A DNA stretch of 34,731 bases from positions 1 to 34,731 of the IMG/VR virus record IMGVR_UViG_3300042448_001637. The stretch is one strand, 5' to 3'. The notes beneath the pieces were generated by a model. It worked only from the letters and a program-made list of their open reading frames with translations. It was not told the DNA's origin and ran no database searches. Shown piece by piece: positions 1 to 33,193 of the stretch. Made by a program: the position numbers and the translations under genes. This DNA comes from a virus. Position 1 is the stretch's first letter. Every line of letters starts with the position of its first letter.

Positions 1-3000
1 AGCTGTTGCTGAAGAACCTGACAATCTTGATGAACCGTTTGTACCAGCGGTACCAGTTGTTCCTGAAGAACCACTTGATGCGCTTGACCCACTTAATTGT
101 GACAATCCCGATAAACCAGCAGTACCATTTGTACCCGTAGAACCTGAAGACGCTGAAGTACCGCTCGATCCACTATTTGCGGATTGACCACTTGTACCAG
201 CGCTACCTGAAGATGCTGATGAACCTGATGAACCTGATGTTCCTGAAGTTGCACTTGATCCAGCACTACCTGAAGATCCGCTTAACTGAGACAATCCTGA
301 TGTACCAACCGTTCCTGATGTTGCTGAAGAGCCTGATGTAGCTGAGCTACCTGAGTTAGCTGAAGCACCTGAAGTTCCGTTAGAACCTGTAGATCCTGAA
401 GAACCAGATGTTCCGCTTGATCTACTTAATGATGATTGGCCATCAGTTCCTGAAGTACCAGTTGAACCTGATGAACCAGAAGTTCCTGAAGTATCACTTA
501 ACGCTGATTGACCGTCCGTACCTGAAGTACCTGACGTTCCAGCTGTTGCTGAAGACCCACTTAATCTACCTAAACCTGAGGTACCATTTGTACCTGAAGT
601 TGCGGAAGATCCTGAAGTTGCGGAAGAACCACTATTTGCTGAAGCACCTGAAGTTCCGTTAGAACCAGTCGATCCAGAAGAACCCGATGTTGCTGAAGAA
701 CCAGCAGAACCACTTAACGCTGAAGAACCTGCTGTTCCTGAAGTCCCAGAAGAACCTGCGCTACCAGCTGAACCACTTAACGCTGAAGAACCAACTGTAC
801 CAGACGTACCAGAAGATGCTGATGAACCTGAAGTTCCAGCAGAACCTGAAAGTTGACTTAAACCTGAAGTACCGATTGTACCTGAAGTAGCTGAGCTACC
901 TGAAGTTGCTGAAGAACCTGAATTAGCAGATGCTCCGTTTGTACCATTTGTACCTGTACTACCTGAACTACCTGATGTACCAGAACTTCTACTTAATGAA
1001 GACTGACCATCTGTACCATTTGTTCCTGAAGACCCAGAGGTTCCTGAAGAACCTGAAGATCTACTCAAACCTGAGGTACCGTTTGTTCCTGAAGAACCGC
1101 TAGATGCTGAAGAACCGCTTAATTGAGATAATCCTGAGTTACCAGCTGTTCCATTTGAACCGCTTGTACCAGAAGTCGCTGAAGAACCAGCAGATCCACT
1201 TGAACCACTTAATGAACTTAAACCAGATGTACCCGCAGTACCACTTGTAGCAGAGCTACCAGCTGTTGCTGAAGAACCTGAATTAGCAGATGCTCCGTTT
1301 GTACCGTTTGTACCCGTAGAACCACTTGAACCAGATGTACCAGAACTTCTACTTAACGCTGATGCACCATCCGTACCCGCTGATCCTGAAGAACCAGAAG
1401 AACCTGATGTACCACTTGTTGCTGAAGTACCCGCTGAGCCTGAGCTACCACTTAATTGTGATACTCCAGATGTTCCAGCTGTTCCTGATGTTGCGGAACT
1501 ACCAGCTGTTGCTGAAGAACCACTATTTGAACTTAATCCTGACGTACCGTTTGTTCCAGTTGATCCTGAAGAACCAGCAGTTCCCGATGATCCAGAACTT
1601 CTACTTAATCCAGAAAGACCATCTGTACCTGAAGTTCCCGTAGAACCTGAAGAACCAGATGTACCTGAAGTATCACTTAAAGCAGACACACCGTCTGTAC
1701 CTGAAGTACCTGACGTTCCAGCTGTTGCTGAAGAACCACTTAATCTACCTAATCCCGAAGTACCAGCAGTACCACTTGTAGCAGATGAACCTGATGTTGC
1801 TGAAGAACCACTATTTGCGCTTGCACCTGAAGTACCAGTAGACCCTGTTGAACCACTAGAACCTGATGTTGCTGAAGAACCCGCAGAACCGCTTAAACCT
1901 GAAGATCCAGCTGTTCCTGAAGTCGCACTAGACCCTGATGAACCTGAACTACCAGCTGAACCACTTAACGCTGAAGAACCAACTGTACCCGTTGTACCTG
2001 ATGTACCACTTGATGCAGATGTTCCTGAAGAACCACTATTTGAAGATAAACCAGAAGTACCGTTTGTACCAGTCGATCCTGAAGACCCACTAGAACCTGA
2101 CGTACCGCTTGATTTGCTTAATGCTGAAGCGCCATCAGTACCAGATGTACCACTTGAACCTGAAGAACCAGATGTACCTGAAGTCGCAGATGTACCAGCA
2201 GATCCAGAAGAACCTGATAATTGAGACAATCCAGATGTACCAACTGTACCTGAAGTAGCAGATGAACCAGAGGTTGCTGATGAACCGCTATTTGCTGAAG
2301 CACCATTTGTACCGTTTGATCCAGTTGAACCACTTGAACCAGATGTTCCTGAAGATCTACTTAACGATGATTGACCATCAGTTCCTGAAGTTCCTGTTGA
2401 TCCTGAAGAACCACTTGTTCCAGAAGTATCGCTTAAAGCTGATTGGCCATCTGTACCTGAAGTACCCGATGTACCAGCTGTTGCTGAAGAACCTGATAAT
2501 CTACCTAAACCTGAAGTACCATTTGTACCTGAAGTTGCGGAAGAACCAGATGTAGCTGAACTACCAGAGTTTGCCGATAAACCGCTTGTACCAGCTGAAC
2601 CTGAAGAACCACTTGTTCCCGCTGTTGCTGAAGAACCAGCTGAACCACTAGAACCACTTAACGCTGAAGAACCAACTGTACCTGCCGAACCTGAAGTTGC
2701 TGATGTACCGCTTGTTGCAGAAGAGCCACTATTTGAAGATAAACCAGATGTACCGTTTGTACCTGTTGATCCTGAACTTCCACTTGTACCTGAACTTCTA
2801 CTTAAAGCAGATGCTCCGTCAGTACCAGCAGATCCTGAAGATCCACTTGATCCTGATGTACCTGAAGTCGCAGATGTACCAGCAGATCCAGAAGAACCTG
2901 ATAATTGAGACAATCCAGATGTACCAACTGTACCTGAAGTAGCAGATGAACCAGAGGTTGCTGATGATCCAGAATTAGCACTTAATCCTGATGTTCCAGC

Positions 3001-6000
3001 TGAACCAGTACTTCCTGAAGAAGCTGATGTACCCGCTGAACCAGAAGATGCACTTAAACCACTAGAACCTGATGTTCCTGAAGTCGCAGAAGAACCCGCA
3101 CTACCAGCAGAACCGCTTAATGCTGAACTACCTGATGTACCAGTTGTACCTGAAGTTGCTGAAGAACCTGAAGTTGCTGATGAACCACTATTTGAAGATA
3201 AACCTGATGTACCGTTTGTACCAGTTGATCCACTTGAACCTGAAGAACCTGAAGTTCCTGAAGATTTACTTAATGCTGATTGACCGTCTGTTCCTGAAGT
3301 TCCAGTTGATCCACTTGAACCAGAAGTTCCAGACGTATCACTTGTAGCAGAAACACCATCTGTACCTGAAGTACCAGATGTTCCAGCTGTTGCTGAAGAA
3401 CCACTTAGTCTTGATAAACCTGAAGTACCAATTGTACCTGAAGTTGCTGAAGAACCTGAAGTTGCTGATGAACCACTATTTGCACTAACACCTGATGTAC
3501 CAGCAGTACCTGTAGATCCAGAAGAACCTGAAGTTGCTGAACTACCACTTAATGCGCTAGCCCCTGAAGTTCCAGCCGAACCACTTGAACCTGAAGTTGC
3601 TGATGTTCCAGCTGAACCTGAAGTTGCTGATAGACCTGAAGAACCTGCGGTTCCTGAAGTTGCTGATGTTCCAGCTGAACCTGCACTACCACTTAATGCT
3701 GAGCTACCTGATGTACCAGTTGTACCTGAAGTTGCTGAAGAACCTGAAGTTGCTGATGAACCACTATTTGAAGATAAACCTGATGTACCGTTTGTACCAG
3801 TTGATCCTGAAGATCCGCTTGAACCAGATGTACCTGAAGATCTACTTAAACCTGATTGACCATCAGTTCCTGATGTACCTGTAGAACCACTTGATCCAGA
3901 AGTTCCTGATGTATCACTTAATGCCGATTGACCGTCCGTACCTGAAGTACCTGACGTTCCAGCTGTTGCTGAAGACCCACTTAATCTACCTAAACCTGAA
4001 GTACCGTTTGTACCTGAAGTCGCTGATGAACCACTTGTTGCTGAACTACCACTATTTGCTGAAGCACCTGAAGTACCAGTAGAACCAGTCGATCCAGAAG
4101 AACCCGATGTTGCTGATGAACCTGCGCTACCACTCAACGCTGAACTACCAGAAGTACCTGTTGTTCCAGAAGTTGCTGATGAACCTGCACTACCTGAAGA
4201 AGCGCTCAATCCTGAGCTACCAGCTGTTCCTGAAGTAGCAGAGCTACCTGAAGTTGCTGAAGATCCGCTTAATTGAGATAAACCATTTGTACCAGCAGTA
4301 CCAGTTGTACCAGAAGATGCTGACGTACCACTTGATCCACTATTTGCAGCTAAACCTGAAGTACCATTTGTACCAGAGGTTGCTGATGAACCAGAACTCG
4401 CTGAAGTTCCTGAAGATGCTGAAGCTCCTGAAGAACCGTTAGAACCTGTTGAACCAGAAGTACCAGAAGTAGCCGAAGAACCAGACGATGAACTCAATCC
4501 TGAAGACCCTGCGGTTCCTGAAGTCGCTGAAGAACCAGAAGATGCACTTGAACCTGAATCACCCGATCTACCAGAAGTACCTGTTGTACCTGAAGTAGCA
4601 GAAGATCCTGATGTAGCAGAAGAACCAGAGTTAGCACTTATACCTGAAGTACCTGCGCTACCAGCTGACCCACTCGTTGCTGATGTTCCTGATGTAGCTG
4701 AAGAACCACTCAATGCGCTAGAACCTGATGTTCCTGAAGATGCTGATGATCCACTAGAACCTGATGTTCCTGATGTAGCTGAAGATGCAGAAGCACCTGA
4801 ACTACCCGCAGTTCCTGAAGATGCTGAAGAACCAGCTGAACCTGAAGTACCGCTTGTTGCTGAACTACCTGATGTAGCGGAGCTACCACTATTAGCACTT
4901 AAACCTGATGTACCGTTTGTACCCGATGTTGCACTTGAACCTGAAGATGCTGATGTACCGCTTGATGCGCTTAAACCAGATGATCCATTAGATCCAGATG
5001 ACCCAGCAGTACCAGAAGTTGCTGATGAACCTGAAGATGCTGATAAACCTGAGCTACCAGCTGTTCCACTTGTTGCTGAAGTACCCGCACTACCAGCTGA
5101 GCCACTCAATGCAGAGCTACCAGAAGTACCTGTTGTTCCTGAAGTAGCTGAGCTACCTGAAGTTGCGGATGAACCACTATTACCTGATAAACCAGATGTT
5201 CCATTAGAACCAGCAGAACCTGAGGTTGCTGAAGTTCCTGATGAAGCACTTGATCCACTATTTGCACTAGAACCTGAAGTACCAGCAGAACCTGAACTAC
5301 CAGATGTACCTGAAGTAGCTGAAGATCCACTTGAACCTGAAGTTCCTGAACTATTACTATTACCTGATGAACCAGCTGTTCCTGAAGATGCTGATGATCC
5401 GCTTGAACCATTTGAACCTGAGGTTGCTGAAGAACCTGAAGTTGCACTTGATCCGCTATTTGCGCTTAAACCTGAAGTACCATTTGTACCACTTGTTGCT
5501 GAACTACCACTTGATGCTGAAGTTCCAGAAGATGCTGAAGCACCTGAAGTACCAGCAGAACCAGAAGATGCTGAAGTCCCTGATGTTGCGCTTGATCCTG
5601 ATGAAGCGGATAAACCAGAAGAGCCAGCCGTACCACTTGTGGCAGAGCTACCTGAAGTTGCAGACGAACCTGAATTAGAACTCAAACCTGATGTACCGTT
5701 TGTACCCGATGTTGCACTTGATCCTGATGAAGCGGATGTTCCCGATGAAGCACTCAATCCTGATGAACCGTTAGAACCAGTTGACCCTGAGGTTCCTGAT
5801 GTCGCAGAACTTCCTGATGAAGAACTTAAACCAGAAGACCCAGCTGTACCTGAAGTAGCGGAGCTACCTGAAGTCGCAGATGAACCGCTATTTGCTGACA
5901 ATCCCGATGTACCGTTTGTACCAGAGGTTGCAGATGAACCAGATGTTGCTGAGGATCCGCTTAAAGCAGATGCCCCACTTGTACCAGCTGAACCTGAAGA

Positions 6001-9000
6001 ACCACTTGTTGCTGAAGAACCACTTGTTGCTGAAGAACCTGAATTAGCACTCAATCCTGACGTACCATTTGTACCAGTACTACCAGAAGAACCTGAAGAA
6101 CCTGAATCAGCACTTTGACCAGATGTTCCTTTGGAACCTGTTGAACCAGCAGAACCACTTGATCCTGAAGATCCAGAAGTTGAACTTAAACCAGAAGATC
6201 CAGATGTACCTGAAGTTGCTGATGAACCTGAAGTAGCAGAGCTACCACTATTTGAACTCAACCCAGATGTACCATTTGTACCTGAAGTTGCGGAACTACC
6301 AGAAGATGCGGATGTACCAGAAGATGCTGAAGCACCTGAAGAACCATTAGAACCAGAAGATCCAGATGTTCCTGAAGTTGCTGAAGACCCACTTGAAGCA
6401 GATAAACCAGAACTTCCAGTGGTACCACTTGTAGCAGAGCTACCTGATGTTGCTGAAGATCCACTTAATGCACTTAAACCACTTGTACCATTTGTACCTG
6501 AAGTCGCAGATGAACCAGAAGAAGCAGATGTTCCTGAAGATGCTGATGCACCTGATGAACCTGCTGATCCTGAAGAACCAGCTGTTCCTGATGTAGCTGA
6601 ACTACCAGAACTTGCACTCAACCCTGATGAACCTGCGGTTCCAGAAGTTGCTGAAGACCCTGATGTAGCGGAGCTACCACTATTTGAAGATAATCCTGAT
6701 GTACCATTTGTACCTGATGTAGCTGAGCTACCTGATGTACCTGACGAACCAGAACTATTACTATTTCCACTCGAACCTGCGGTTCCTGAAGAAGCTGAAC
6801 TTCCTGAAGAACCTGATGTACCGCTTGTTGCTGATGACCCACTTGTAGCAGATGACCCTGAATTTGCGGCTAAACCTGAAGTACCATTTGTACCTGAAGT
6901 TGCTGAAGATCCACTTGAAGCAGATGTTCCTGAAGAAGCTGAAGCACCACTTGAACCAGCTGAACCTGAAGAACCCGAAGTTCCACTTGTAGCAGATGAA
7001 CCAGAACTTGCGCTTAAACCTGAACTTCCAGCTGTTCCTGACGTAGCAGAGCTACCTGAAGTTGCTGAAGAACCACTATTTGAACTCAATCCCGAAGTAC
7101 CGTTTGTTCCACTTGTAGCAGAAGAACCAGAACTTGCTGATGTACCTGAAGAAGCTGAAGCACCTGAAGAACCAGCTGATCCACTTGTACCTGAAGTACC
7201 TGAAGAAGCTGAACTTCCAGATGATGCACTTAAACCTGAAGATCCAGCTGTCCCTGAGGTAGCAGAGCTACCAGAAGTTGCTGAAGAACCACTATTAGCG
7301 GCTAAACCAGAAGTACCATTTGTACCAGAAGTAGCCGAACTACCACTTGATGCAGAAGTTCCTGAAGATGCTGACGCACCACTTGACCCAGCTGAACCTG
7401 AAGATCCTGATGTCGCAGAAGTTCCTGAAGAACCAGCTGAACCCGAACTACCTGAATTAGCGGCTAAACCAGAAGTACCATTTGTACCTGAAGTAGCTGA
7501 ACTACCAGACGATGCTGATGTTCCTGAAGAAGCGGAAGCCCCTGATGAACCAGCAGAACCTGTTGAACCTGAAGTTCCACTTGTTGCTGAAGACCCAGCA
7601 GAAGAACTTAAACCTGAAGATCCAGCCGTACCACTTGTAGCAGAGCTACCTGAAGTTGCTGAAGACCCACTATTACCTGATAAACCACCAGTACCATTTG
7701 TTCCTGAAGAACCTGAAGTTCCTGATGTAGCTGAAATAGCTGAAATACCATCAGCACCATCAACCCCACTTGAACCTGAAGTTCCTGATGAACCAGATGT
7801 TTTACTTGAACCACTTAAACCACTTGTACCTGTTGTACCCGAAGTTGCTGATGAACCACTTGTAGCAGATGATCCTGAATTAGCTGATAAACCACTTGTA
7901 CCAGCTGTTCCTGAAGTTGCAGATGAACCAGATGATGCTGATGTTCCTGAAGATGCTGATGCACCTGAAGAACCAGCAGAACCGCTTGATCCAGCTGTAC
8001 CAGAAGTTCCTGAAGAAGCGGATGACCCACTTGAACCACTATTAGCCGCCAATCCTGAGGTACCATTTGTACCTGAAGTAGCAGAAGAACCAGATGATGC
8101 TGATGTTCCTGAAGAAGCAGATGCCCCTGATGAACCTGATGTAGCTGACGTACCACTTGTAGCTGAAGAACCACTAGTTGCAGATGTGCCTGAAGAAGCT
8201 GATGATCCTGATGTAGCTGAACTACCACTTAATGCAGAAGCCCCACTTGTACCAGCTGAACCTGAACTACCTGATGTAGCTGAAGTTGCTGATGAACCAC
8301 TATTAGCGGCTAAACCTGAGGTACCGTTTGTACCTGAAGTCGCTGACGAACCCGATGATGCACTTAAGCCTGAAGAACCCGCAGTTCCTGAAGTTGCAGA
8401 TGTACCTGAAGAAGCTGACGCTCCTGATGAACCATTAGAACCTGAAGTTGCAGAGCTACCTGAAGTTGCTGATGATCCTGAGTTTGCTGATAAACCAGAA
8501 GTACCATTTGTACCTGTAGAACCAGCTGTTCCTGAAGAACCTGAAAATTGACTTAAACCTGACGCACCAGCAGTACCATTTGTACCAGTTGATCCTGAGG
8601 AACCGCTTGATCCAGATGTTCCTGACGTTGATGACAAATTACTATCCCCACCAATACCTGATGTTCCAGTTGAACCCGAACTACCTGAAGTTCCTGACGT
8701 TGATGACAAATTACTTTCACCATCTATACCTAAAGTACCATTTGATCCACTTGACCCTGATGTACCTGAAGAAGAACTATCACCACTTATACCTGAAGTT
8801 CCATTGGAACCATCGTTTCCTGAAGAACCATCTGTACCAGTTGAACCTGATTCACCTGACAATCCAGATGTTCCAAAACTACCGTCATTTCCTGAAGAAC
8901 CGTCAGACCCAGTTGACCCAGACGTACCTGATTGACCAGATGTGCCATAAGATCCATCATTTCCTGAAGAACCGTCACTACCTGTGCTACCACTTTCACC

Positions 9001-12000
9001 ACTTAAACCTGAAGTACCGTTAGAACCATCTACACCTGATAAACCAGATGTACCATCTGAACCTGAGACCCCACTTACGCCATTAACACCATTTAAACCT
9101 GAAGAACCATCACTACCATTTGAACCTGACTCCCCACTTTGACCACTTGTACCAAATGAACCGTCTGCTCCTGAAGAACCATCGGACCCTGTAGAACCCG
9201 ATTCACCAGAAACACCAGAAGTTCCATTAGAACCATCATTTCCTGAAGATCCATCGGACCCTGTGCTTCCAGATTCCCCTGAAACACCTGAAGTCCCATT
9301 GGAACCATTATCACCACTACTACCATCGGATCCTGTAGAACCACTTTCACCACTTAAACCTGAAGTTCCATTGGAACCATTATCACCACTAGATCCATTG
9401 CTACCAGTACTTCCAGATTCACCAGAAACACCACTCGTACCAAAACTACCATCGTTACCTGATGTACCATCTGAACCAGTTGACCCCGATTCGCCTGATT
9501 GGCCTGAAGTTCCAAACGATCCGTCATTTCCTGAAGAACCGTCAGTACCTGTACTACCAGATTCACCTGATATACCACTTGTTCCGTTAGAACCGTCATT
9601 TCCTGAAGAACCATCTGAACCAGTTGACCCTGATTCACCAGAAACACCTGAAGTTCCATTGGAACCATTATCACCGCTACTACCATTAGTACCTGTTGAT
9701 CCAGATTCACCTGACAATCCTGAAGTACCAAAACTACCGTCAGCACCACTTGAACCATCACTACCTGTACTACCAGATTCCCCTGATTGACCAGATGTTC
9801 CGAAAGAACCATCTAAACCACTCGATCCATCTGTTCCAGTTGAACCAGATTCACCACTTAAACCTGAAGTCCCGTTAGAACCATCGTTACCTGAACTTCC
9901 ATCTGTTCCAGTCGATCCACTTTCACCTGATTGACCAGAAGTACCAAAACTACCATCCGCTCCTGAAGAACCGTCAGAACCTGTACTACCTGACTCACCA
10001 CTTAAACCACTTGTACCAAATGAACCATCATTTCCTGAAGATCCATCTGTTCCAGTCGATCCACTTTCACCTGATAGACCTGAGGTTCCGAATGAACCGT
10101 CATTACCTGACGTACCGTCACTACCTGTAGATCCTGATTCACCACTTAAACCTGAAGTTCCGTTGGAACCATCATTACCACTACTACCGTCTGTACCATT
10201 ACTACCAGATTCACCAGAAACACCACTCGTACCAAAACTACCATCATTTCCTGAAGATCCATCGGATCCTGTGGAACCACTTTCACCACTTATACCTGAA
10301 GTTCCGAAGGAACCATCGTTTCCTGAAGAACCATCTGTGCCCGTAGAACCACTTTCGCCTGAAACACCACTTGTACCAAATGACCCATTTTCACCACTAC
10401 TACCATCTGTACCTGTTGATCCTGATTCACCTGAAACACCAGAAGTACCAAAACTACCATCATTTCCTGAAGAACCATCTGATCCCGTTGAACCAGATGT
10501 TCCTGACTCACCAGAAGTTCCGAATGAACCATCATTTCCTGAAGATCCATTGGATCCCGTAGATCCTGATTCACCACTTAAACCACTTGTACCAAATGAA
10601 CCATCAACACCAGATAATCCAGATGTACCATCTGATCCAGAGATACCCGAACTACCATCAACACCATTTAAACCAGAAGTACCAGTTGAGCCTGATTCAC
10701 CAGAAACCCCCGAAGTACCAAAACTACCATCCGCTCCTGAAGAACCGTCAGAACCAGTTGATCCTGATTCACCTGATAAACCAGAAGTTCCGTTGGAACC
10801 CTCATTTCCTGAACTTCCATCTGTTCCAGTGCTACCACTTTCACCTGATATACCACTTGTCCCAAAACTACCGTCATTACCTGAAGTACCATCAGAACCA
10901 GTACTACCTGACTCGCCACTTATACCAGAAGTTCCGTTGGAACCCTCATTTCCTGAACTTCCATCTGTTCCAGTGCTACCACTTTCACCTGATATACCAC
11001 TTGTCCCAAAAGATCCGTCATTTCCACTACTACCGTCAGAACCCGTACTACCAGATTCACCAGAAACACCACTCGTACCAAAACTACCATCATTTCCTGA
11101 AGATCCATCTGTACCAGTCGATCCGCTTTCACCGCTTATACCTGAAGTTCCGTTGGAACCATCATTCCCCGAAGTACCATCTGTTCCAGTCGATCCACTT
11201 TCACCACTTTCACCTGAAGTTCCGTTGGAACCATCATTCCCCGAAGAACCGTTAGTACCCGTACTACCAGATTCACCTGACAATCCAGAGGTTCCAAAAG
11301 AACCGTCATTACCTGAAGAACCATCGGATCCTGTAGAACCGCTTTCACCTGAAATACCAGAAGTTCCGTTGGAACCGTCATTTCCTGAACTACCATCAGT
11401 TCCAGTTGAACCACTTTCACCTGAAATACCACTTGTTCCAAAACTACCGTCATTACCTGAAGATCCATTGGATCCTGTAGATCCTGACTCACCACTTAAA
11501 CCACTTGTACCAAATGAACCATCATTTCCTGAAGATCCATCGGACCCTGTGCTTCCAGATTCCCCTGAAACACCTGAAGTCCCATTGGAACCATTATCAC
11601 CACTACTACCATCTGTACCTGTTGATCCGCTTTCGCCTGATTGACCAGATGTTCCGAATGAACCATCAGCACCCGATAAACCGTCTGTGCCAGTGCTACC
11701 ACTTTCTCCACTTATACCTGAAGTTCCATTGGAACCGTCATTACCACTTTCACCTGAAGTTCCGTTGCTTCCACTTTCACCCGATTGACCACTTGTACCA
11801 AAACTACCGTCATTTCCTGAAGAACCGTCAGTACCTGTGCTACCAGATTCTCCTGATTGACCAGATGTTCCAAAACTACCATCATTTCCTGAAGAACCGT
11901 CAGAACCTGTTGATCCAGACTCACCTGACAACCCTGAAGTACCAAAACTACCATCAACACCAGATAATCCAGATGTACCATCTGAACCTGAAACACCAGA

Positions 12001-13098
12001 ACTACCATCAACACCATTTAAACCAGAAGTACCAGTTGAACCGCTTTCACCTGAAACACCACTTGTACCAAAAGAACCATCCGCTCCTGAAGAACCGTCT
12101 GAACCAGTTGAACCGCTATCGCCACTTATACCTGAAGTTCCGTTGGAACCGTCATTACCGCTTTCGCCATTTGTTCCCGAAGAACCACTTTCACCTGATA
12201 TACCTGAAGTTCCAAAACTACCGTCTGCTCCTGAAGATCCATCTGAACCCGTGCTCCCACTTTCTCCACTAACACCAGATGTACCAAAGCTACCATCGTT
12301 ACCCGAACTACCATCTGTTCCTGTAGATCCGCTTTCACCCGAAATACCACTTGTACCAAAAGAACCATCATTCCCCGAAGAACCATCTGAACCAGTTGAA
12401 CCAGATTCACCTGATTGACCACTTGTTCCGTTAGAACCATCATTCCCCGAAGAACCATCTGTACCAGTTGATCCTGATTCCCCTGATTGACCAGAAGTAC
12501 CAAAACTACCGTCATTACCTGAAGAACCATCGGATCCTGTAGAACCGCTATCGCCACTTATACCTGAAGTTCCGTTGGAACCATCTGCACCACTTTCACC
12601 TGAAGTTCCAGTTGATCCTGATTCACCTGAAACACCAGAAGTACCAAAACTACCATCATTTCCTGAAGAACCATCTGATCCCGTTGAACCAGATGTTCCT
12701 GACTCACCAGAAGTACCGTAAGAACCACCTAAACCTGAATAACCTGAAGTACCAGCGGTACCAGATGTACCTGCTAATAAGGGTGAATAAGAATATTCAC
12801 CAGTAGCAGAATTAAACGACACGAAATAGTTTGGAGAACTATTTTCGGTCATACCAGTAACAAATAATTGATTTAGGGTGTATATCCCTTTAAGATCTTG
12901 GGTATTTTCCCACTGAAGTGTGGTATTATTCCAAACTAAAATGTCCCCTTCATTGGGGCCACTTATTACAACGTCTGATAGATCATCTATTCCAAGATTT
13001 TCTATAACGTCCTTTATATTCTGGAAGTTAGCATCTAATTCCGCATAGGATAGTGCCCTTCCTAGATCATCTCTAAGATAAATTGTTACTGTTGCCAT
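1..13098 (-). CDS. Giant collagen-like phage fibre protein, 3' end beyond window
   Basis: One minus-strand frame stays open from an ATG at 13098 to base 1: at least 4,366 codons, C-terminus missing. Residues 1-109 form a non-repetitive anchor containing LSYAELDANFQNI, a motif common at the N-terminus of phage tail fibres, and GDILVWNNTTLQW. From Gly110 (12771) the protein is Gly-X-Y triplets. Down to about 8770 they are strict, in a module of eight triplets (72 nt) approximating GTD GSS GND GSF GTS GIS GES GST. From about 8770 to 1 the triplet phase continues, but Ala, Ser, Gln, Arg or Asp often replaces Gly (GSSATSGTS, GLSQLSGSS, GTDGQSALSDTS). X and Y are mainly Ser, Thr, Asp, Asn and Glu; I found no Pro in the repeats I read. 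Likely a trimeric host-contact fibre; the tip or adhesin would lie outside the window. The gene follows clpC on the same strand after 90 nt. Confidence 0.9.
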   Translation of the reverse strand, partial: MATVTIYLRDDLGRALSYAELDANFQNIKDVIENLGIDDLSDVVISGPNEGDILVWNNTTLQWENTQDLKGIYTLNQLFVTGMTENSSPNYFVSFNSATGEYSYSPLLAGTSGTAGTSGYSGLGGSYGTSGESGTSGSTGSDGSSGNDGSFGTSGVSGESGSTGTSGESGADGSNGTSGISGDSGSTGSDGSSGNDGSFGTSGQSGESGSTGTDGSSGNDGSNGTSGQSGESGSTGSDGSSGNDGSFGTSGISGESGSTGTDGSSGNDGSFGTSGVSGESGSTGSDGSSGADGSFGTSGISGESGSSGTNGESGNDGSNGTSGISGDSGSTGSDGSSGADGSFGTSGVSGESGSTGTSGLNGVDGSSGVSGSDGTSGLSGVDGSFGTSGLSGESGSTGSDGSSGNDGSFGTSGQSGESGSTGTDGSSGNDGSFGTSGQSGESGSNGTSGESGNDGSNGTSGISGESGSTGTDGLSGADGSFGTSGQSGESGSTGTDGSSGDNGSNGTSGVSGESGSTGSDGSSGNDGSFGTSGLSGESGSTGSNGSSGNDGSFGTSGISGESGSTGTDGSSGNDGSNGTSGISGESGSTGSDGSSGNDGSFGTSGLSGESGSTGTNGSSGNDGSNGTSGESGESGSTGTDGTSGNDGSNGTSGISGESGSTGTDGSSGNDGSFGTSGVSGESGSTGSDGSSGNDGSFGTSGISGESGSTGTDGSSGNEGSNGTSGISGESGSTGSDGTSGNDGSFGTSGISGESGSTGTDGSSGNEGSNGTSGLSGESGSTGSDGSSGADGSFGTSGVSGESGSTGTSGLNGVDGSSGISGSDGTSGLSGVDGSFGTSGLSGESGSTGSNGSSGNDGSFGTSGESGTSGSTGSDGSSGNDGSFGTSGVSGESGSTGTDGSSGENGSFGTSGVSGESGSTGTDGSSGNDGSFGTSGISGESGSTGSDGSSGNDGSFGTSGVSGESGSNGTDGSSGNDGSNGTSGLSGESGSTGSDGTSGNDGSFGTSGLSGESGSTGTDGSSGNDGSFGTSGLSGESGSTGSDGSSGADGSFGTSGQSGESGSTGTDGSSGNDGSNGTSGLSGESGSTGTDGSSGLDGSFGTSGQSGESGSTGSDGSSGADGSFGTSGLSGESGSTGTNGSSGDNGSNGTSGVSGESGSTGSDGSSGNDGSNGTSGISGESGSTGTDGSSGNDGSFGTSGQSGESGSTGSDGTSGNDGSFGTSGVSGESGSTGSNGSSGDNGSNGTSGLSGESGSTGSDGSSGDNGSNGTSGVSGESGSTGSDGSSGNDGSNGTSGVSGESGSTGSDGSSGADGSFGTSGQSGESGSNGSDGSSGLNGVNGVSGVSGSDGTSGLSGVDGSNGTSGLSGESGSTGSDGSSGNDGSYGTSGQSGTSGSTGSDGSSGNDGSFGTSGLSGESGSTGTDGSSGNDGSNGTSGISGDSSSSGTSGSSGSNGTLGIDGESNLSSTSGTSGSSGSTGTSGIGGDSNLSSTSGTSGSSGSSGSTGTNGTAGASGLSQFSGSSGTAGSTGTNGTSGLSANSGSSATSGSSATSGSNGSSGASASSGTSATSGTAGSSGLSASSGSSATSGTNGTSGLAANSGSSATSATSGSSGSAGTSGASALSGSSATSGSSASSGTSATSGSSATSGTSATSGSSGASASSGTSASSGSSATSGTNGTSGLAANSGSSGSSASSGTSGTAGSSGSAGSSGASASSGTSASSGSSATSGTAGTSGLSANSGSSATSGSSATSGTTGTSGLSGSSKTSGSSGTSGSSGVDGADGISAISATSGTSGSSGTNGTGGLSGNSGSSATSGSSATSGTAGSSGLSSSAGSSATSGTSGSTGSAGSSGASASSGTSASSGSSATSGTNGTSGLAANSGSSGSAGSSGTSATSGSSGSAGSSGASASSGTSASSGSSATSGTNGTSGLAANSGSSATSGSSATSGTAGSSGLSASSGSSASSGTSGTSGSAGSSGASASSGTSASSGSSATSGTNGTSGLSSNSGSSATSGSSATSGTAGSSGLSASSGSSATSGTSGSSGSAGSSGASASSGTSASSGSSATSGTNGTSGLAANSGSSATSGSSATSGTSGSSGSSASSGTAGSSGNSNSSGSSGTSGSSATSGTNGTSGLSSNSGSSATSGSSATSGTAGSSGLSASSGSSATSGTAGSSGSAGSSGASASSGTSASSGSSATSGTNGTSGLSALSGSSATSGSSATSGTTGSSGLSASSGSSATSGTSGSSGSNGSSGASASSGTSASSGSSATSGTNGTSGLSSNSGSSATSGSSATSGTSGSSGLSSTSGSSGSSGSAGSTGSKGTSGQSADSGSSGSSGSTGTNGTSGLSANSGSSATSGSSATSGSSGSAGTSGASALSGSSATSGSSATSGTNGTSGLSANSGSSATSGSSATSGTAGSSGLSSSSGSSATSGTSGSTGSNGSSGLSASSGTSASSGSSATSGTNGTSGLSSNSGSSATSGSSATSGTAGSSGLSASSGSSATSGTSASSGSAGTSGASASSGTSASSGSSATSGTNGTSGLSANSGSSATSGSSATSGSNGSSGSSASSGTAGSSGNSNSSGTSGSSGSSATSGTSGSSGSAGTSGSSANSGSSASSGTSATSGSAGSNGTSGLSGNSGSSATSGSSATSGTTGTSGSSALSGSAGSAGTSATSGTAGSSGLSASSGSSATSGTAGSSGSNGSSGLSASSGTSASSGSSATSGTNGTSGLSANSGSSATSGSSATSGTSGSAGSSASSGTAGSSGASASSATSGTSGSSGSSASSGTSGSSALSGSSATSGTSATSGSAGSAGTSGISANSGSSATSGSSATSGTTGTSGRSGDSGSSASSGSSATSGTAGSSGLSSSSGSSATSGTSGSTGSNGSSGASASSGTSASSGSSATSGTNGTSGLAANSGSSGTSASSGTTGTAGTNGLSQLSGSSATSGSSATSGTAGSSGLSASSGSAGSSATSGTTGTSGSSALSGSAGSSATSGSSGSTGSTGTSGASANSGSSATSGSSATSGTNGTSGLGRLSGSSATAGTSGTSGTDGQSALSDTSGTSGSSGSTGTSGTDGQSGLSRSSGTSGSSGSSGSTGTNGTSGLSSNSGSSATSGSSATSGTTGTSGSSALSGSAGSAGTSATSGTAGSSGLSATSGSAGTSATSGSSGSAGTSGASALSGSSATSGSSGSTGTAGTSGVSANSGSSATSGSSATSGTIGTSGLSRLSGSSATAGTSGTSGTDGVSATSDTSGTSGSSGSTGTSGTDGQSALSKSSGTSGSSGSSGSTGTNGTSGLSSNSGSSATSGSSATSGTTGTSGSSALSGSAGSAGSSATSGTSGSSGLSASSGSAGTSASSGSTGSAGTSGLSANSGSSATSGSSATSGTVGTSGLSQLSGSSGSAGTSATSGTSGSSGSSGSAGTDGASALSRSSGTSGSSGSTGTNGTSGLSSNSGSSATSGTSATSGSAGTVGSSALSGSSGSAGSSATAGTSGSSGSAGTSGLSANSGSSATSGSSATSGTNGTSGLGRLSGSSATAGTSGTSGTDGQSALSDTSGTSGSSGSTGTSGTDGQSSLSRSSGTSGSSGSTGSNGTNGASANSGSSATSGSSATSGTVGTSGLSQLSGSSGSAGTSATSGTSGSSGSSGTSGTDGASALSKSSGTSGSSGSSGSTGTNGTSGLSSNSGSSGTSASSGTSGTTGTVGSSALSGSAGSSGSSGSSATSGTAGSSGLSGSAGSSATSGSSGSTGSTGTSGASANSGSSATSGSSATSGTAGTSGLGRLSGSSATAGTSGTSGTDGVSALSDTSGTSGSSGSTGTSGTDGLSGLSRSSGSSGTAGSSGSTGTNGTSGLSSNSGSSATAGSSATSGTAGTSGVSQLSGSSGSAGTSATSGTSGSSGSSGSAGTDGASALSRSSGTSGSSGSTGTNGTNGASANSGSSATAGSSATSGTAGTSGLSSLSGSSGSAGSSATSGTSGSNGTAGNSGLSQLSGSSASSGSSGTNGTSGLSRSSGSSGTSGSSGTNGTDGQSSLSRSSGTSGSSGSTGTNGTNGASANSGSSATSGSSATSGTIGTSGLSQLSGSAGTSGSSASSGTSGTVGSSALSGSAGSAGSSGTSGTAGSSALSGSAGSSATSGSSGSTGSNGTSGASANSGSSATSGSSATSGTNGTSGLGRLSGSSATAGTSGTSGTDGQSALSDTSGTSGSSGSTGTSGTDGQSSLSRSSGTSGSSGSTGSNGTSGASANSGSSATSGSSATSGTVGTSGLSQLSGSSGSAGSSATSGTSGSSGSSASSGSAGTSGQSANSGSSGTSASSGSTGTNGTAGLSGLSQLSGSSASSGSSGTTGTAGTNGSSRLSGSSATA

Positions 13099-13188: not shown

Positions 13189-15654
13189 TTACTCCGTAAT
13201 ACTCACGTTTATTTTTTCAACCTTAGTATTATAGGTTATAACTATTTTACCAGATTTAGGCATTTGTTTACGTAACATTTCGTCAGAAATAGGATCCTCA
13301 ACATATTTTTGTATGGTTCTTTGGATCTCTCTTGCCCCATATAATTTATTAAAACCTTTTTCTAAAATAAAATCTTTAGTTTTTTTATCAATTTTAACAG
13401 TAAAGCCGATTTTATTTAAATGATTCTCAAAATCTTTTAATTGTAAATCAATGATTTTAATCACATCATCTTGTGTTAAGTAATTAAAATAGACAATCTC
13501 ATCCAAACGATTAATAAATTCTGGTTTAAAAGTTTTCTTAAGATTTTTTTCAATAATACTTTTTGAATTAGTATTGGACTCAGTTTCAGAATCACTAAAA
13601 CCAATCTTTGTACCAAAATCTTGAACTTCTTTTAACCCAATATTTGAAGTCATGATAATAATGGTGTTTTTAAAGTTAATTTTTCTACCATTACCATCAG
13701 TTAGGAAACCTTCATCCAATAGTTGGAGCATTACGTTAAAAATATCTGGGTGAGCTTTTTCAATCTCGTCAAATAAAACCAAAGAGTATGGTTTATTCTT
13801 AACTTTCTCGGTTAATTGACCACCTTCATTGTAACCAACATATCCTGGGGGCGCTCCAATCAATTTACTAATGTTAAATTTTTCAGAATATTCTGACATA
13901 TCAACACGAATGATAGCATTCTGTGAGCCAAAAACTTTCTCAGCCAAAGATTTCGCTAATTCCGTTTTACCAACACCAGTTGGTCCGATAAATAAGAATG
14001 AACCGATTGGTTTAGATTGTTTTCTAATACCAGTTCTATTTCTTTTAATAGATGAAACTACTTTATCAATTGCATCTGACTGACCAATTACACAATTAGC
14101 TAATTCTTTATCCATTGATAATAACCTAGTTATTTCATTTTCAGATACTTTGCTAACAGGTATACCAGTCATCATTGAGACAACTTCAGAAATCATATCC
14201 GCATCAACAATATTCCTTTTATCATTAATCGATAATTTCCAAACCGAATTTTCTTTTTCTAATTCAGTTATAATTTTCTTTTCTTGGTCACGAAGTTGTG
14301 CAGCTTGTTCAAAATTTTGCGTTTTAACAACAAGTTGTTTTTGTTCCTTGATGTCTTTTAATTTAGTCTCAAGGTCTTTAATTTTTTGTGGTGCCTTAAT
14401 TGCAACCTGAGTTCTTGAACCAGCTTCATCCATAATGTCGATAGCTTTATCAGGGAACTCTCTATTTGTAATGTAACGATCGGCCAATGCAATGATTTCA
14501 TTAATAGCCTCTTCGGTATAAGTTACCTTATGGAAATCTTCATACCTTTCTTTAATATTCATCAAGATTTGTTTCGTCTCATCCAATTGAGGTGGGTTAA
14601 CCATAACTTTTTGGAATCTACGATCCAGCGCACCATCTTTTTCAATATGCTCACGATACTCGTCAAGAGTTGTAGCACCAATACATTGAAGTTCACCACG
14701 TGCTAAAGCTGGTTTAAATACGTTTGCAGCGTCCAAAGAACCAGAAGAGTTACCAGCACCAACGATTGTATGTAATTCATCAATAAAAAGGATTACATTT
14801 GGGTTATCCTTAGCTTCATCAACGATTGCTTTAATTCTCTCTTCGAATTGACCACGATATTTTGTACCAGCAACTAACGATGTCATGTCCAATGTTACGA
14901 CACGTTTATTCATTAAAGGCCTTGGGCAATCACCATTTGCGATTTTAATTGCCAAGCTTTCAGCGATAGCTGTTTTACCAACACCTGGATCACCAATAAG
15001 GATTGGGTTATTTTTCTTTCTTCTCGTTAGAATTTGACAAACTCTTTCCACCTCAGAACTACGACCAATAACTGGGTCTAATTTACCCTCTTGCGCTAAC
15101 ACAGTTAAATCACGGCCAAAATTATCCAACGTTGGTGTTTTTGATTTAATATTTTTATTAGCCTCATTTAATGGTTTTCTATCCTTAGGGATTTCATCAT
15201 CATTAGAAAATATACTCGATTGAGGTGTTGACAACTGTTTAATTTTTTTAGCAATAAACGTTTTTGTTAAACCATATTCCTTGAATAATTTAACAATCGC
15301 ATTATCTTTCTCCATCGAAATTAGAAAAAATAACTCAACTGTAATGTGGTCAGTGGGTTTTTTTCTAACAATACACTCTTTTATTATTTCCTGTAATTCT
15401 GGTTCAAACGGTAAGATACCATCTTGTTTATCGCTTGATGAATCCGACAATCTCTTATTAATGTCGTTTAAATCATTAACCATTACGTCAAAATCAAGGA
15501 CTTTGTTCTTAATAACCTCATATATCATATTCTCAGTAGTGAGAATACCAAATATAACATGCTGTAACCTAAGCATTGAATCGTTGTACTTAATTGCCAC
15601 GGATTGCCCTCTGGTAAAGGCGCTTCTCAATTCGTTTGTCATTTTTTCTTTCAT
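13189..15654 (-). CDS. clpC: ClpC-type Hsp100 AAA+ unfoldase
   Basis: 821 aa, the usual ClpC length. A diverged Clp N-domain (about 1-145) is followed by AAA-1 with Walker A GDPGVGKT (221-228) and Walker B ILFIDE (288-293), a short middle domain with a UVR-like [14 protein letters not shown] (447-460), and AAA-2 with Walker A GPTGVGKT (557-564), Walker [11 protein letters not shown] (626-635) and sensor-2 GAREI (773-777). The short middle domain argues against ClpB. KIGF (683-686) matches the IGF/IGL loop by which ClpA, ClpC and ClpX dock on ClpP, so the protein could feed substrates to the host ClpP; no clpP is visible here. Start: the ATG lies 20 nt downstream of a consensus Bacteroidota promoter. 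The gene lies directly upstream of the giant fibre gene, so a role in folding or quality control during infection is possible but unproven. Confidence 0.93.
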
Positions 15655-16218: not shown

Positions 16219-16683
16219 ATGTACGTTGATGTAAGATATGAATCAAGAGCTAATATAACTTTCCATAATATGGCGAAGGTTTCCATACGTGGTAACCAAA
16301 ATTACCTTGTTAAATGGTATTATAATGATGAGTTTTTCGGTGAAATGTTCTTAAATGGTGGAACATGGGGGGCTTATCCGATGAATGAGATAGGTAATTG
16401 GAGAGTGGAATTTTGGCAAGAAAATAGATTAATATACACCTACACCAATATACTTGAAAAAAATAATATTCTTATATTATTTGATAATGATGGTAATGAT
16501 TTTGGTGAATTCGCCAGAAAAGTTAAAGAATATTCTGATGACATATCAAATAGATTTGGTTGTAACACCTTTGTTTTCTTTAAAAATTCGGAATTATGTG
16601 ATTTTACCGATCATAAGGGTATACCATTAAGATTAAATGATGATATTAACAGCTTTAAAATTATTTATAACAAAATATTATAA
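16219..16683 (+). CDS. Unknown phage protein, 154 aa
   Basis: Acidic, aromatic-rich soluble protein beginning MYVDVRYESRANITF. The N-terminal half (WYYNDEFFGEMFLNGGTWG, then NWRVEFWQENRLIY) looks like an all-beta domain; the C-terminal half (NNILILFDNDGNDFGEFARK) looks alpha/beta. I do not recognise the family. The stop overlaps the oxygenase start by one base (TAATG), which points to coupled expression, so a partner role with the oxygenase is possible but unsupported. Confidence 0.75.
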   Translation: MYVDVRYESRANITFHNMAKVSIRGNQNYLVKWYYNDEFFGEMFLNGGTWGAYPMNEIGNWRVEFWQENRLIYTYTNILEKNNILILFDNDGNDFGEFARKVKEYSDDISNRFGCNTFVFFKNSELCDFTDHKGIPLRLNDDINSFKIIYNKIL

Positions 16684-17345
16684 TGGATAATTTAATTAAA
16701 ATATACGAAAACACTATTCCTAGAGAAGTTTGTGATTTTATCATAAACGAATTTGAAACATCTAAAAACCAAACGGAAGGTATTAGCGGTGCTGGTGTTA
16801 ATAAACTCGTTAAATCCTCAACAGATTTGATGATTCACTTAAATCTGGATAACCCAAATTGGTTATATATCTATGATTACTTAAGAGAAAATTTATTGGG
16901 TAATCTTGTTGAATATATTGAACAAAACAGTTTTATGACAATTACTGGTGGGTTTGCATCAAAAGCCTCTGCCGTGAGAACAGCTCAATCTTGTTATATT
17001 GCTGGTAATAACGGCCAACCACATATGCAAATGCAGAGATATATCGATGACCAAGGATATTATGCCTGGCACCATGAAAATGAGGGCGGCACAACGGCTA
17101 AAAGAGAATTATTTTTTATTTATTATCTAAATGATGTTGATGGTGGTGAAACTGAATTTAAATTTAACCAGCAAAAAGTAAAACCAGAAACTGGTAAATT
17201 AGTTATAGCCCCAGCCTTATGGACACACAAACATCGTGGTAATCCCCCACAAAATGGTCAATACAAATATATCATCACAGGTTGGATCGAAAAAAAGGAT
17301 GAACACTATATTTCTGAAGAATTTGAGGAAGATTACTTAATTTAA
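16683..17345 (+). CDS. 2-oxoglutarate/Fe(II) oxygenase, prolyl 4-hydroxylase-like
   Basis: 220 aa with a C-terminal double-stranded beta-helix fold. Visible active-site elements: YYAWHHENEGG giving the HxE iron ligands His130 and Glu132, YYLNDVDGGETEF (148-159), the distal His184 in THKHRGNPP, and Lys195 in KYIITGW to bind 2-oxoglutarate. This is the phage P4H-like pattern also known from marine myoviruses. Such enzymes hydroxylate Pro or other side chains; the substrate here is unknown. The obvious neighbour candidate, the collagen-like fibre, has no Pro in the repeats I read, so another residue or protein must be considered. Fourth gene of the operon, start overlapping the previous stop. 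Confidence 0.88.
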   Translation: MDNLIKIYENTIPREVCDFIINEFETSKNQTEGISGAGVNKLVKSSTDLMIHLNLDNPNWLYIYDYLRENLLGNLVEYIEQNSFMTITGGFASKASAVRTAQSCYIAGNNGQPHMQMQRYIDDQGYYAWHHENEGGTTAKRELFFIYYLNDVDGGETEFKFNQQKVKPETGKLVIAPALWTHKHRGNPPQNGQYKYIITGWIEKKDEHYISEEFEEDYLI

Positions 17346-25029: not shown

Positions 25030-25629
25030 ATGGCAGCAGACATTTCCGCTCAATTTACGGGTCTTCCTATTGAAGAACTGATTGTGTCACCTATCGTTGG
25101 TATGGCGAAGGGGCAAGCAAAATTAAACGATGTAACATGGAAATACATCAACGAAGTTGCATTCCAAACAGATAAAGAGGGTAACACAACAGCTCGTTCT
25201 TTAGACGTTCAAATGCAAAGAGTTATGACTGATCCTACAGATGGATCTCAGTCGGTTAAAACTTTGTATTCTAAAGTTGCGATGTTACCTTTAGTTCCAC
25301 TTCCAGCATTAGCTATCACATCAGCTGATATTGCTTTTACTATGGAAGTTAAAACATCTGAGGTAGACAAAACATCAGAAGATAAAAGCGGTAGCTTTAG
25401 TGCTAGTGCATCTGGTGGATTCTGGGGTATGAAATATTCAGTTAATATGTCTGGTAGTGTTGCTACTCACAAGGAGAACACAAGAAGTACAGATAATTCA
25501 GCTAAATATGAAGTAAAAGTACACGCAGAGCAATTACCACCAACAGAAGGTATGTTGAAATTATCGGATTACCTAACACAAATGTTAGAGCCAACTTTAA
25601 TTCCACCATCTGTTAACACAAACGCTTAA
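25030..25629 (+). CDS. DUF2589-like protein, long form
   Basis: 199 aa. LPIEELIVSPIVGMAKGQAKL, then FINEV-like YINEVAFQ, an SLDVQMQR strand and AMLPLVPLPALAITSADIAF match the DUF2589 layout: an N-terminal helix that packs on a beta domain with a Pro-rich Leu-Pro-Leu-x-Pro segment. A Ser/Gly-rich loop (SGSFSASASGGFWG) interrupts the C-terminal part. DUF2589 proteins are usually found as adjacent pairs of unknown function, and the next gene is the partner. The leader is very A-rich, a normal Bacteroidota start context, with TATAAATA at 24988-24995. An alternative as a tail component was considered but nothing supports it. Confidence 0.75.
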   Translation: MAADISAQFTGLPIEELIVSPIVGMAKGQAKLNDVTWKYINEVAFQTDKEGNTTARSLDVQMQRVMTDPTDGSQSVKTLYSKVAMLPLVPLPALAITSADIAFTMEVKTSEVDKTSEDKSGSFSASASGGFWGMKYSVNMSGSVATHKENTRSTDNSAKYEVKVHAEQLPPTEGMLKLSDYLTQMLEPTLIPPSVNTNA

Positions 25630-25639
25630 TACCAATAAC

Positions 25640-25670
25640 TTGACTTTATGAATAATTTTAACTACATTTG
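25640..25670 (+). promoter_or_regulatory. Consensus Bacteroidota promoter between the DUF2589 genes
   Basis: TTG (25640-25642), 20 nt, TACATTTG (25663-25670), 19 nt before the ATG at 25690. It allows separate expression of the second DUF2589 gene. Confidence 0.7.
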
Positions 25671-25689
25671 AAAAAAAATTACAACATAT

Positions 25690-26175
25690 ATGTCAAGATT
25701 GAATATTGAGGAATTAGTTGGTGGACTTCTAGAAGCTGCCATGGTTTCTCAGGGTATAAGTGAAAGACAGCATATTAATGCTCTTAGGAATTATTTCAAT
25801 GAAGACGGTACACCCAAAATACAAACCTTTGTAATAGGAGATAAAACTTTGGATGTACCGCTTTATATTTTGGCCGACCACTCATCTATAGGTTTAGATG
25901 AATTAGATATTGAATTTGAAGCTAGACTTATTTTTGGGGATAGTGATGGTGAGGTATCTGATCTTAAAAAATCCCTACTAGGTCTTTTCAAAAAGAAAGG
26001 TTATCAACACAATATTAAAGGTATTGAAGTTGATTCTGGTAAAAATACCGATAGGTCTGGAATGGCTAGAATAAAAGTAAAATTTAAAGCGGATGAAAAA
26101 CCTGAAGCTGTTAGTAGATTAGTAGATGTCTATATTCAAAAAATGACTGAAACGGGTACTAATGAAAATAAATAA
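25690..26175 (+). CDS. DUF2589-like protein, short form
   Basis: 161 aa. Begins MSRLNIEELVGGLLEAAMVS, parallel to the LPIEELIVSPIVGMAKGQ start of the previous protein. Then DKTLDVPLYILADHSSIGLDELDIEFEARL matches the second common DUF2589 variety (a vPL-x-x-L...h-x-x-L-x-I-x-x-L-x-V-x-F core). The C-terminal part (MARIKVKFKADEKPEAVSRLVDVY) is another beta strand plus helix. No signal peptide. Paired with 25030-25629 but with its own promoter. Confidence 0.72.
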   Translation: MSRLNIEELVGGLLEAAMVSQGISERQHINALRNYFNEDGTPKIQTFVIGDKTLDVPLYILADHSSIGLDELDIEFEARLIFGDSDGEVSDLKKSLLGLFKKKGYQHNIKGIEVDSGKNTDRSGMARIKVKFKADEKPEAVSRLVDVYIQKMTETGTNENK

Positions 26176-31721: not shown

Positions 31722-31727
31722 GCACCT

Positions 31728-32453: not shown

Positions 32454-32454
32454 T

Positions 32455-32811: not shown

Positions 32812-32846
32812 ATCTTCTTCGTTTGTTTTATTTATTTTCTTTTTCC

Positions 32847-33182: not shown

Positions 33183-33193
33183 TGTTTTAAATT

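Follow-up and report, generated by a model that had tools for sequence, protein, structure and literature searches.

A giant proline-free collagen-like phage fibre gene and the putative serine O-glycosylation genes linked to it in relatives

Collagen-like phage proteins have been described in E. coli prophages, i.e. EPclA-D, in which a Gly-X-Y domain is located between terminal domains. Trimeric rods were shown for rEPclA, and the longest collagen domain of this group has 322 residues, with Pro as the commonest residue at X (PMC3368898). The whiskers of the jumbo phage CBB are 119 nm long (PMC5259590). The glycosyltransferase TibC modifies serine, not threonine (PMC4358343). Here we analyzed a giant collagen-like fibre gene in the virus record IMGVR_UViG_3300042448_001637, which was obtained from environmental DNA. 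The window, i.e. the whole stretch of DNA analyzed, is the complete public record of 34,731 bases, so that the leftward extension proposed in a first-pass annotation is impossible, and relatives of the virus were used for comparison (designated G and L below).

The frame starts with ATG, contains 4,366 codons without any stop, and is still open at the end of the contig. When these 13,098 bases were shuffled 200 times, the longest stop-free frame had 235 codons. The observation of a single unbroken minus-strand frame in the first-pass annotation is thus confirmed. The anchor is followed by a body with two different parts (Table 1). In the strict part, all 444 register positions are Gly, i.e. 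444 unbroken triplets or 1,332 residues, which include a 72-nt (24-residue) super-repeat, 155 Asp and Glu residues, and neither Lys nor Arg. In the relaxed part (2,925 visible residues), 694 of the 975 register positions are Gly (71%) and 226 are Ala (23%), and thus Gly is not found at every third residue, although Pfam Collagen (PF01391) matches the last 1,500 visible residues with 322 bits. Ser is present at 762 of the 975 Y positions. Not a single Pro was found in the 4,257 residues of the body, which therefore lacks the Pro-rich X and Y positions of classical collagens. The visible protein is also free of Cys; Ser and Thr represent 49.6% of the whole, and the visible body contains 1,585 Ser.

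The register was followed with an alignment-free count. No shift was found in 69 overlapping 120-residue windows of the body, nor in five related bodies (72, 91, 36, 74, and 56 windows, 329 in total), and the same register is kept across the boundary between the strict and the relaxed part. The first-pass description as Gly-X-Y triplets for 12.8 kb is therefore correct for the register, but strict Gly-X-Y is confined to residues 110-1441. Ala at the register occurs in adjacent triplets only three times, compared with an expected value of 52 and a minimum of 35 in 2,000 shuffles; for the relative G009, the observed value is 6, the expected value 42, and the shuffle minimum 27. In some stretches of the relaxed part, triplets with Gly and triplets with Ala nearly alternate, the third residue being Ser. 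The spacing of Ala and its conservation mark the relaxed part as a specific pattern and not as decayed collagen.

The fibre gene is under purifying selection. Near-identical copies recur in separate samples, and two other assemblies of the gene have 5 residue differences in 4,334 and 4 in 3,858, respectively. The ratios of nonsynonymous to synonymous substitution rates (dN/dS) against the sister gene in G025 are 0.124, 0.166, and 0.142 for three blocks; for comparison, the neighbouring Clp gene has values of 0.04-0.05 against three other relatives. In the three blocks, 5 of 701 register positions have changed, and 150 Ala remain Ala. Against the more distant sister G004, Gly of the strict part has changed at 0 of 434 aligned positions, compared with 217 of 865 for X and Y. 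In the relaxed part, X differs at 209 of 927 positions and Y at 168 of 927. All 30 gap runs in the alignment of the relaxed part are multiples of three residues, as are seven of the nine in the strict part, with the remaining two (13 and 8) adding up to 21. Because the aligner favours such gaps, the claim of a constant register rests on the alignment-free count instead.

Relatives were used to estimate the full length. The anchor was found in 31 IMG/VR loci, with identities of 48-100%. The frame leaves the contig or the fetched stretch in 26 of these, a stop follows a folded tip in four, and the remaining locus (L019, on contig G009) has a stop at codon 255. G009 has 5,825 codons up to the tip on one contig and in one frame, with this single in-frame TAA. 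The stop is absent from the corresponding site of the sister assembly G004, and the TAA is either a population variant or a consensus error. Over its last 4,291-4,301 bases, G009 is matched at 100% by three right-hand contigs, all of them from other samples; a fourth, L058, is an exception in that it matches in two pieces and its frame is broken. The left-hand contigs G004 and G006 terminate in an exact repeat of 127 bases, and G009 may therefore skip one 360-base loop. A second sister gene was completed from G003 and G025, which overlap by 5,368 bases at 99.8%; it has 5,415 codons. Both completed sister genes end in a Peptidase_S74 tip. The last 1,881 bases of the window align to G003 and G025 at 96.4%, and 2,196 codons follow there, so that the gene of the window is projected to have ~6,560 codons and the full protein probably has more than 6,000 amino acids.

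If the body were a triple helix throughout, with a rise of 0.286 nm per residue, the projected rod would have a length of ~1.8 micrometres. The visible part would account for 1.2 micrometres (1,218 nm) and the strict part for 0.38 micrometres (381 nm), and the arithmetic behind the earlier values of over 1 and near 0.4 micrometres is right. For comparison, IMG/VR was scanned for at least 60 Gly-X-Y triplets (at least 120 stretches, 80 clipped loci kept, 76 with the run in frame). Among the matches listed, no run exceeds 329 triplets and no frame 3,275 residues, compared with 444 triplets and at least 4,366 residues for the fibre of the window, values that refer to this sample and imply no record. 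The 329 uninterrupted triplets are located on L218, a viral contig of 9,774 bases. In one sister virus, a second, shorter collagen-like protein (1,225 residues) is encoded at G022:52039-55713.

The tip of the sister genes was assigned to Peptidase_S74 with 55.5 bits (Pfam cut-off 22). Ser and Lys of its S-D-x-R-x-K motif, which we take to be the catalytic residues, are invariant in 12 of 12 relatives. The tip matches 627 INPHARED records; among the 25 listed, 14 carry the annotation long tail fibre distal subunit and most of the others a different tail fibre label, besides spike proteins, a baseplate wedge, an S74 protein, or hypothetical. S74 domains are trimerising chaperones, and mainly for this reason three chains are expected. 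The nearest relative that holds the tip and the heptosyltransferase (see below), L068, stems from the same sample as the near-identical contig L010. The anchor has no match among the INPHARED phages, and its comparison with genome_contigs yielded 19 stretches, none of which was confirmed, so that no host was identified in this way. A megablast search of INPHARED with the fibre body gave no match, and the low-complexity filter may hide repeats. The interpretation in the first-pass annotation is partly supported. A real, giant, collagen-like fibre of the virion is supported by the stop codon and the S74 tip of the relatives, by the annotated tail fibres among the matches of the tip, and by a second group of relatives, in which sheath genes are located downstream of the fibre on its strand; in total, the fibre is longer still than was visible to the first-pass annotation. 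A BclA_C-like domain lies between the anchor and the collagen-like body at L049:7990-8562 in the relative G013 (E 9e-4, below the cut-off), and a similar island was seen near the start of G011 gene 2.

Six relatives (G011, G013, G016, G017, G018, and G023) have two tandem collagen-like frames (genes 1 and 2) instead of one. The first of these has both the anchor and its own tip and is complete in all but G023, where its start is missing. In four relatives (G011, G013, G016, and G023), gene 2 is whole, including the S74 tip; in the others it is cut by the end of the contig or stretch. G011 gene 1, with 2,574 residues, is nearly strict in its Gly-X-Y pattern, and G011 gene 2, with 4,969 residues, has a relaxed body and the S74 tip. 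Of the 18-mers in the strict part of the window, 23.5% recur in G011 gene 1 and none in gene 2; of those in the relaxed part, 40.1% recur in gene 2 and none in gene 1. A codon tree of 14 Clp sequences separates the fused forms from the two-gene forms with a support of 0.989; L011, of unassigned form, is located inside the fused group. The sequence of the fusion junction is common to the window and G003/G025 and differs in G004/G009. Judged from these sequence comparisons, the fibre gene of the window is a fusion, the strict and relaxed halves of which are separate tandem genes in outgroups.

In relatives, the S74 tip is accompanied by genes for putative glycosylation enzymes. Homologues of a 916-residue and a 315-residue glycosyltransferase (GT917 and GT315) adjoin the tip in 15 loci of the series L058-L074, in which the contigs of L062 and L067 are too short for this count. 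Among the 80 tip loci kept, 16 were too short to judge, as at least 3.5 kb downstream were required. GT917/GT315 are located beside the tip for 15 of 18 collagen-like bodies, compared with 0 of 46 other bodies. The three collagen-like loci without them (L095-L097) have Ser and Thr fractions of 7-9% in the tested stretch, compared with 20-41% in the others. The third conserved neighbour (~400 residues) is a TibC/AAH-type O-heptosyltransferase (TIGR04414: 326, 310, and 343 bits in three relatives, cut-off 200). It was found in 16 of the 17 loci L058-L074, the contig of L062 ending before it. Of the 11 records searched with the model, 8 exceed the cut-off, among them that of Microcystis phage Mel-JY01; the others are two left-half contigs and LR756502. 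The enzyme matches the TibC structure 4rap with an E value of 6e-61. Its D116 corresponds to the catalytic Asp, which is replaced by Ala in the 4rb4 chain, and C349, C352, C366, and C378 align with the iron-finger cysteines of TibC; all five residues are invariant in six of six sequences. In the clade of the window, a carbamoyltransferase is linked as well, and an FkbM methyltransferase is present in two relatives examined.

Of 50,697 INPHARED records, 4 contain the heptosyltransferase, one of them being Mel-JY01 (PP395634). The coding sequence at 4750-8430 of that record, annotated as 'methyltransferase FkbM', has a C-terminal TibC/AAH-type domain (317 bits, cut-off 200). The heptosyltransferase is the last third of this 1,226-residue gene, and 1.7 kb before the gene a collagen-like frame ends that is rich in Ser and Thr, contains some Pro, and has 1,016 residues, its other end being open at the start of the record. 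TibC-like genes were also seen in LR756501, LR756503, and LR756504 (phages of 735 and 636 kb), with the match in LR756503 being the same as that in LR756501.

To estimate the linkage between the enzyme and the fibre, we kept 80 of at least 566 viral heptosyltransferase loci, many of them short. A collagen-like frame is present in 42 of the 80. The fraction rises to 33 of 36 for loci with at least 8 kb upstream, and to 20 of 21 for loci with at least 6 kb on both sides, the exception (L297) having a 495-residue collagen-like frame at a laxer setting. In 39 of the 42 loci, the richest stretch of the nearest collagen-like frame has at least 27% Ser and Thr, and GT917 and GT315 accompany 40 of the 42. 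Two gene orders were found. In 28 of the 42 loci, the fibre is upstream on the same strand, the tail sheath is in the locus, and no relative of the capsid protein of the window's clade was found. In the other 14, the fibre is on the opposite strand, and the capsid gene is near in 13. For comparison, control pieces of the same and related phage records contained a collagen-like gene in 9 of 31 cases when the fibre was left in; the contigs had mostly been selected for holding the fibre, and the longest one, G022, alone gives 2 of 10. With the fibre cut away, the value was 1 of 23, a control that is too lenient to the linkage claim because the fibre had been removed from its pieces.

The genes around the fibre and the genomes of relatives were used to classify the virus. 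T4-type portal, prohead protease, and gp23-type major capsid proteins were identified in G013 (phrog_138, phrog_207, and phrog_213), and a relative of the contractile sheath in four of eight records (G022, G026, G028, and G029); the contigs of the remaining four are shorter or of similarly small size. In G022, the sheath relative is located ~52 kb from the fibre. Sample 3300008113 contains an anchor contig of 51,317 bases and a tip contig of 206,296 bases; if both belong to one virus, its genome has at least 257 kb. For the capsid protein, identities of 31-34% were found with its counterparts in a 484 kb phage, in Microcystis phage Mel-JY01, and in Flavobacterium phages. The Clp protein matches 149 phage records, and among the 30 listed the highest identities (57% and 55%) belong to two huge phages, of 642 and 635 kb, respectively; one record outside those 30 matches at more than 60%. 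Taken together, a huge T4-like phage is the best reading.

The gene for the Clp unfoldase directly precedes the anchor in each of the 31 anchor loci, and from its position alone it may be a candidate helper for folding or clearing giant chains. The 2-oxoglutarate (2OG)-Fe(II) oxygenase is also present in 31 of 31; a role as prolyl hydroxylase of the fibre was considered and dropped, as the body has no Pro. Further to the right, two DUF2589 proteins are encoded side by side (25030-26175), followed by host-like secreted proteins (29056-34729) with a cohesin match above the cut-off and matches to C-type lectin, dockerin, and Por_Secre_tail (T9SS) just below it. From the near-match to Por_Secre_tail (26.5 bits, cut-off 27), the host is probably a member of the Bacteroidota.

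Table 1. Fibre gene, its parts, and conserved neighbours in the window
Feature	Position	Strand	Basis or remark
Giant collagen-like fibre gene	1..13098	-	4,366 codons visible; 3' end past the contig; stop-free frame, dN/dS, near-identical assemblies
N-terminal anchor, residues 1-109 (MATVTIYL...ELDANF...)	12772..13098	-	Related IMG/VR loci
Strict Gly-X-Y body, residues 110-1441	8776..12771	-	Match to Pfam Collagen (620 bits; cut-off 27.2)
Relaxed period-3 body, residues 1442-4366 and beyond	1..8775	-	Register counts
ClpA/B-like AAA+ unfoldase	13189..15654	-	90 bp upstream of fibre; phrog_4871 843 bits
2OG-Fe(II) oxygenase	16683..17345	+	Pfam 2OG-FeII_Oxy_3 E 1.9e-14; conserved neighbour

Taken together, we favour, as somewhat better than an even call, the interpretation that the gene encodes a homotrimeric, O-glycosylated adhesion fibre of micrometre scale, which belongs to a huge T4-like phage and arose by fusion of two genes. 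We infer the triple helix, the trimer, the glycosylation, the position on the virion, and the role in adhesion. Most probably, the chains would be synthesised in the host cytosol, where the phage TibC-type enzyme would meet both its acceptor and host ADP-heptose and would O-heptosylate Ser. The two further linked glycosyltransferases would extend the heptose, and the carbamoyltransferase and the FkbM methyltransferase could join in the decoration of the serines. The S74 tip, which would lie beyond the end of the window, would trimerise the chains and bring them into register, while the Clp unfoldase might assist the folding or clearance of the large chains. With the N-terminal anchor docked on the virion, the acidic, proline-free body of Gly-X-Y and Gly/Ala-X-Ser triplets would form a rod of micrometre order, which the sugar coat would keep hydrated and stable without hydroxyproline. 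A bolder version is put forward tentatively, as possible rather than probable, i.e. a virus-made bottlebrush with hundreds to thousands of O-heptosylated Ser per chain, in which sugar takes over the stabilising role of hydroxyproline.

Several observations weigh against the glycosylated micrometre-scale fibre or parts of it. Neither the tip nor the heptosyltransferase is encoded in the window, and both are known from relatives. AlphaFold2 yielded poor models of the anchor and the tip (mean pLDDT, the predicted local confidence score, 52 and 37, respectively). A triple helix along the whole shaft is doubtful, considering the absence of Pro, the lack of Lys and Arg in the strict part, and Ala at 23% of the register; two thirds of the visible body are not canonical Gly-X-Y, and a helix over the full length, the condition of the length extrapolated in the first-pass annotation, is therefore unproven. 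Compared with G004, the relaxed part differs at 128 of 927 register positions, including 70 Gly/Ala exchanges, so that the order of Gly and Ala is not fixed over longer times. Short-read contigs break at the 127-nt repeat, and exact lengths may thus be off. As to the linkage, no collagen-like frame was detected in 3 of the 36 loci with at least 8 kb upstream (L297, L330, and L351), nor within 15 kb of the heptosyltransferase in LR756501 and LR756504. In three of the 42 loci (L304, L346, and L348), Ser and Thr of the nearest frame amount to just 13-19%. A collagen-like frame is also found in 5 of 20 remote S74 loci of at least 15 kb without these enzymes (L075-L137), and the heptosyltransferase is present in only 2 of the 80 collagen-like loci sampled, which were clipped. 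Many loci are close kin, and the number of independent cases is therefore far lower than the counts suggest. Lastly, a SIS_2 (GmhA-type) heptose gene had no match in 11 of 11 records, so that the ADP-heptose donor would be that of the host; synthesis of ADP-heptose by the phage is unsupported. The one cytidylyltransferase-like gene of G022 fits the TagD and HldE models about equally, both below the cut-off.

The rival explanations concern either single properties of the fibre or its very existence. It is a real contender, if short of an even chance, that only the strict part of 0.38 micrometres is collagen-like and that the relaxed part adopts another fold with a period of three or six residues, or forms a flexible, glycan-covered stalk. 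The 71% Gly and 23% Ala at the register, the rarity of adjacent Ala, the retention of Ala in G025, and the high occupancy of Y by Ser (762 of 975) speak for such a fold, whereas the constant register across the boundary and the 322 bits of Pfam Collagen over the last 1,500 residues argue for a continued collagen-like structure, as do length differences in multiples of three, which are known for phage collagen domains (PMC3368898). Entirely artificial origins, i.e. an assembly or repeat artefact without a real protein, are by now largely refuted and highly improbable. Simple repeats do inflate stop-free frames and break short-read assemblies, and the repeat at the ends of G004 and G006, the broken frame of L058, and the in-frame stop of G009 would fit, but purifying selection, the constant register, near-identical copies in separate samples, and sister genes with tips in separate assemblies are not expected of an artefact.

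The other two rivals accept the protein and question its decoration or its place on the virion. We regard it as unlikely, though not negligibly so, that it is an ordinary unglycosylated tail fibre, collagen-like and merely very long, and that the glycosyltransferases act on the capsid, DNA, or the host surface. Phage glycosyltransferases often serve other uses, those in the clade of the window adjoin the major capsid gene, and the two huge phages with a heptosyltransferase and no collagen-like frame within 15 kb would be explained. Yet in 28 of the 42 loci the enzyme is encoded on the strand of the fibre, with the sheath present and no capsid relative found, and GT917/GT315 discriminate between collagen-like and other S74 fibres (15 of 18 versus 0 of 46). 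In addition, TibC-type enzymes target serine-rich adhesins (PMC4358343). A fibril on the capsid, comparable to the fibril layer of mimivirus, is a rather improbable alternative to a tail fibre: the portal, protease, and major capsid genes are the nearest structural genes in the clade of the window, and the sheath is ~52 kb away, but sheath and tube genes are neighbours in the other gene order, and 14 of the 25 listed S74 tip matches are annotated as long tail fibre distal subunits.

A glycosylated adhesion fibre thus remains our favoured interpretation. In a very long fibre without proline, the direct question is what holds it together, and the linked O-heptosyltransferase is a testable answer. 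If the interpretation is true, glycosylation of adhesins would extend from bacterial autotransporters to phage virions. The sugar-stabilised bottlebrush, if real, would be a new kind of virion appendage across a large, mostly uncultured group of huge phages and would catch cells at a distance of about one cell length. The pairing of fibre and enzyme recurs in many phage contigs and in two gene orders. Mel-JY01, with a complete genome record, a named host, and apparently both parts, may make a test possible now. Among the papers listed in the open-licence literature searched, no title or opening of an abstract dealt with giant fibres of the collagen-like kind in huge phages or with phage enzymes of the TibC type.

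Comparison with known systems shows both shared and distinct features. The EPclA-D proteins share the typical length differences in multiples of three residues (PMC3368898), whereas the fibre of the window has 1,332 strict and at least 2,925 relaxed residues, no Pro, another anchor, and an S74 tip, the last as found in its sisters. Long tail fibres of T4-like phages likewise have S74 near the distal C-terminus, and an annotated fusion of gp36 and gp37 exists in Vibrio phage nt-1. The gene of nt-1 is, however, several times shorter (3,564 bases), with a tip that is 44% identical over 70% of the query. BclA, a protein of the Bacillus spore hair, is short, and its repeats contain Pro and Thr. It has a sugar-bearing collagen-like shaft (PMC8968730), as may the fibre described here, which is encoded by a phage gene, Ser-rich, and proline-free. 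The heptosyltransferases TibC and AAH, which act on the autotransporter adhesins TibA and AIDA-I (PMC4358343), agree with the linked enzyme in the family model, the catalytic Asp, and the iron-finger cysteines, and in both cases a serine-rich, repetitive adhesin or adhesin-like protein is adjacent; here, the enzyme is phage-encoded and the putative acceptor is collagen-like instead of an autotransporter. In the cuticle collagen of Riftia, sugar replaces hydroxyproline as stabiliser, in an animal protein that is glycosylated at threonine and not at serine (PMC11766948). The fibre is therefore an extreme member of the known collagen-like phage fibres, with a history of fusion and, in its relatives, a linked set of genes for serine O-glycosylation.

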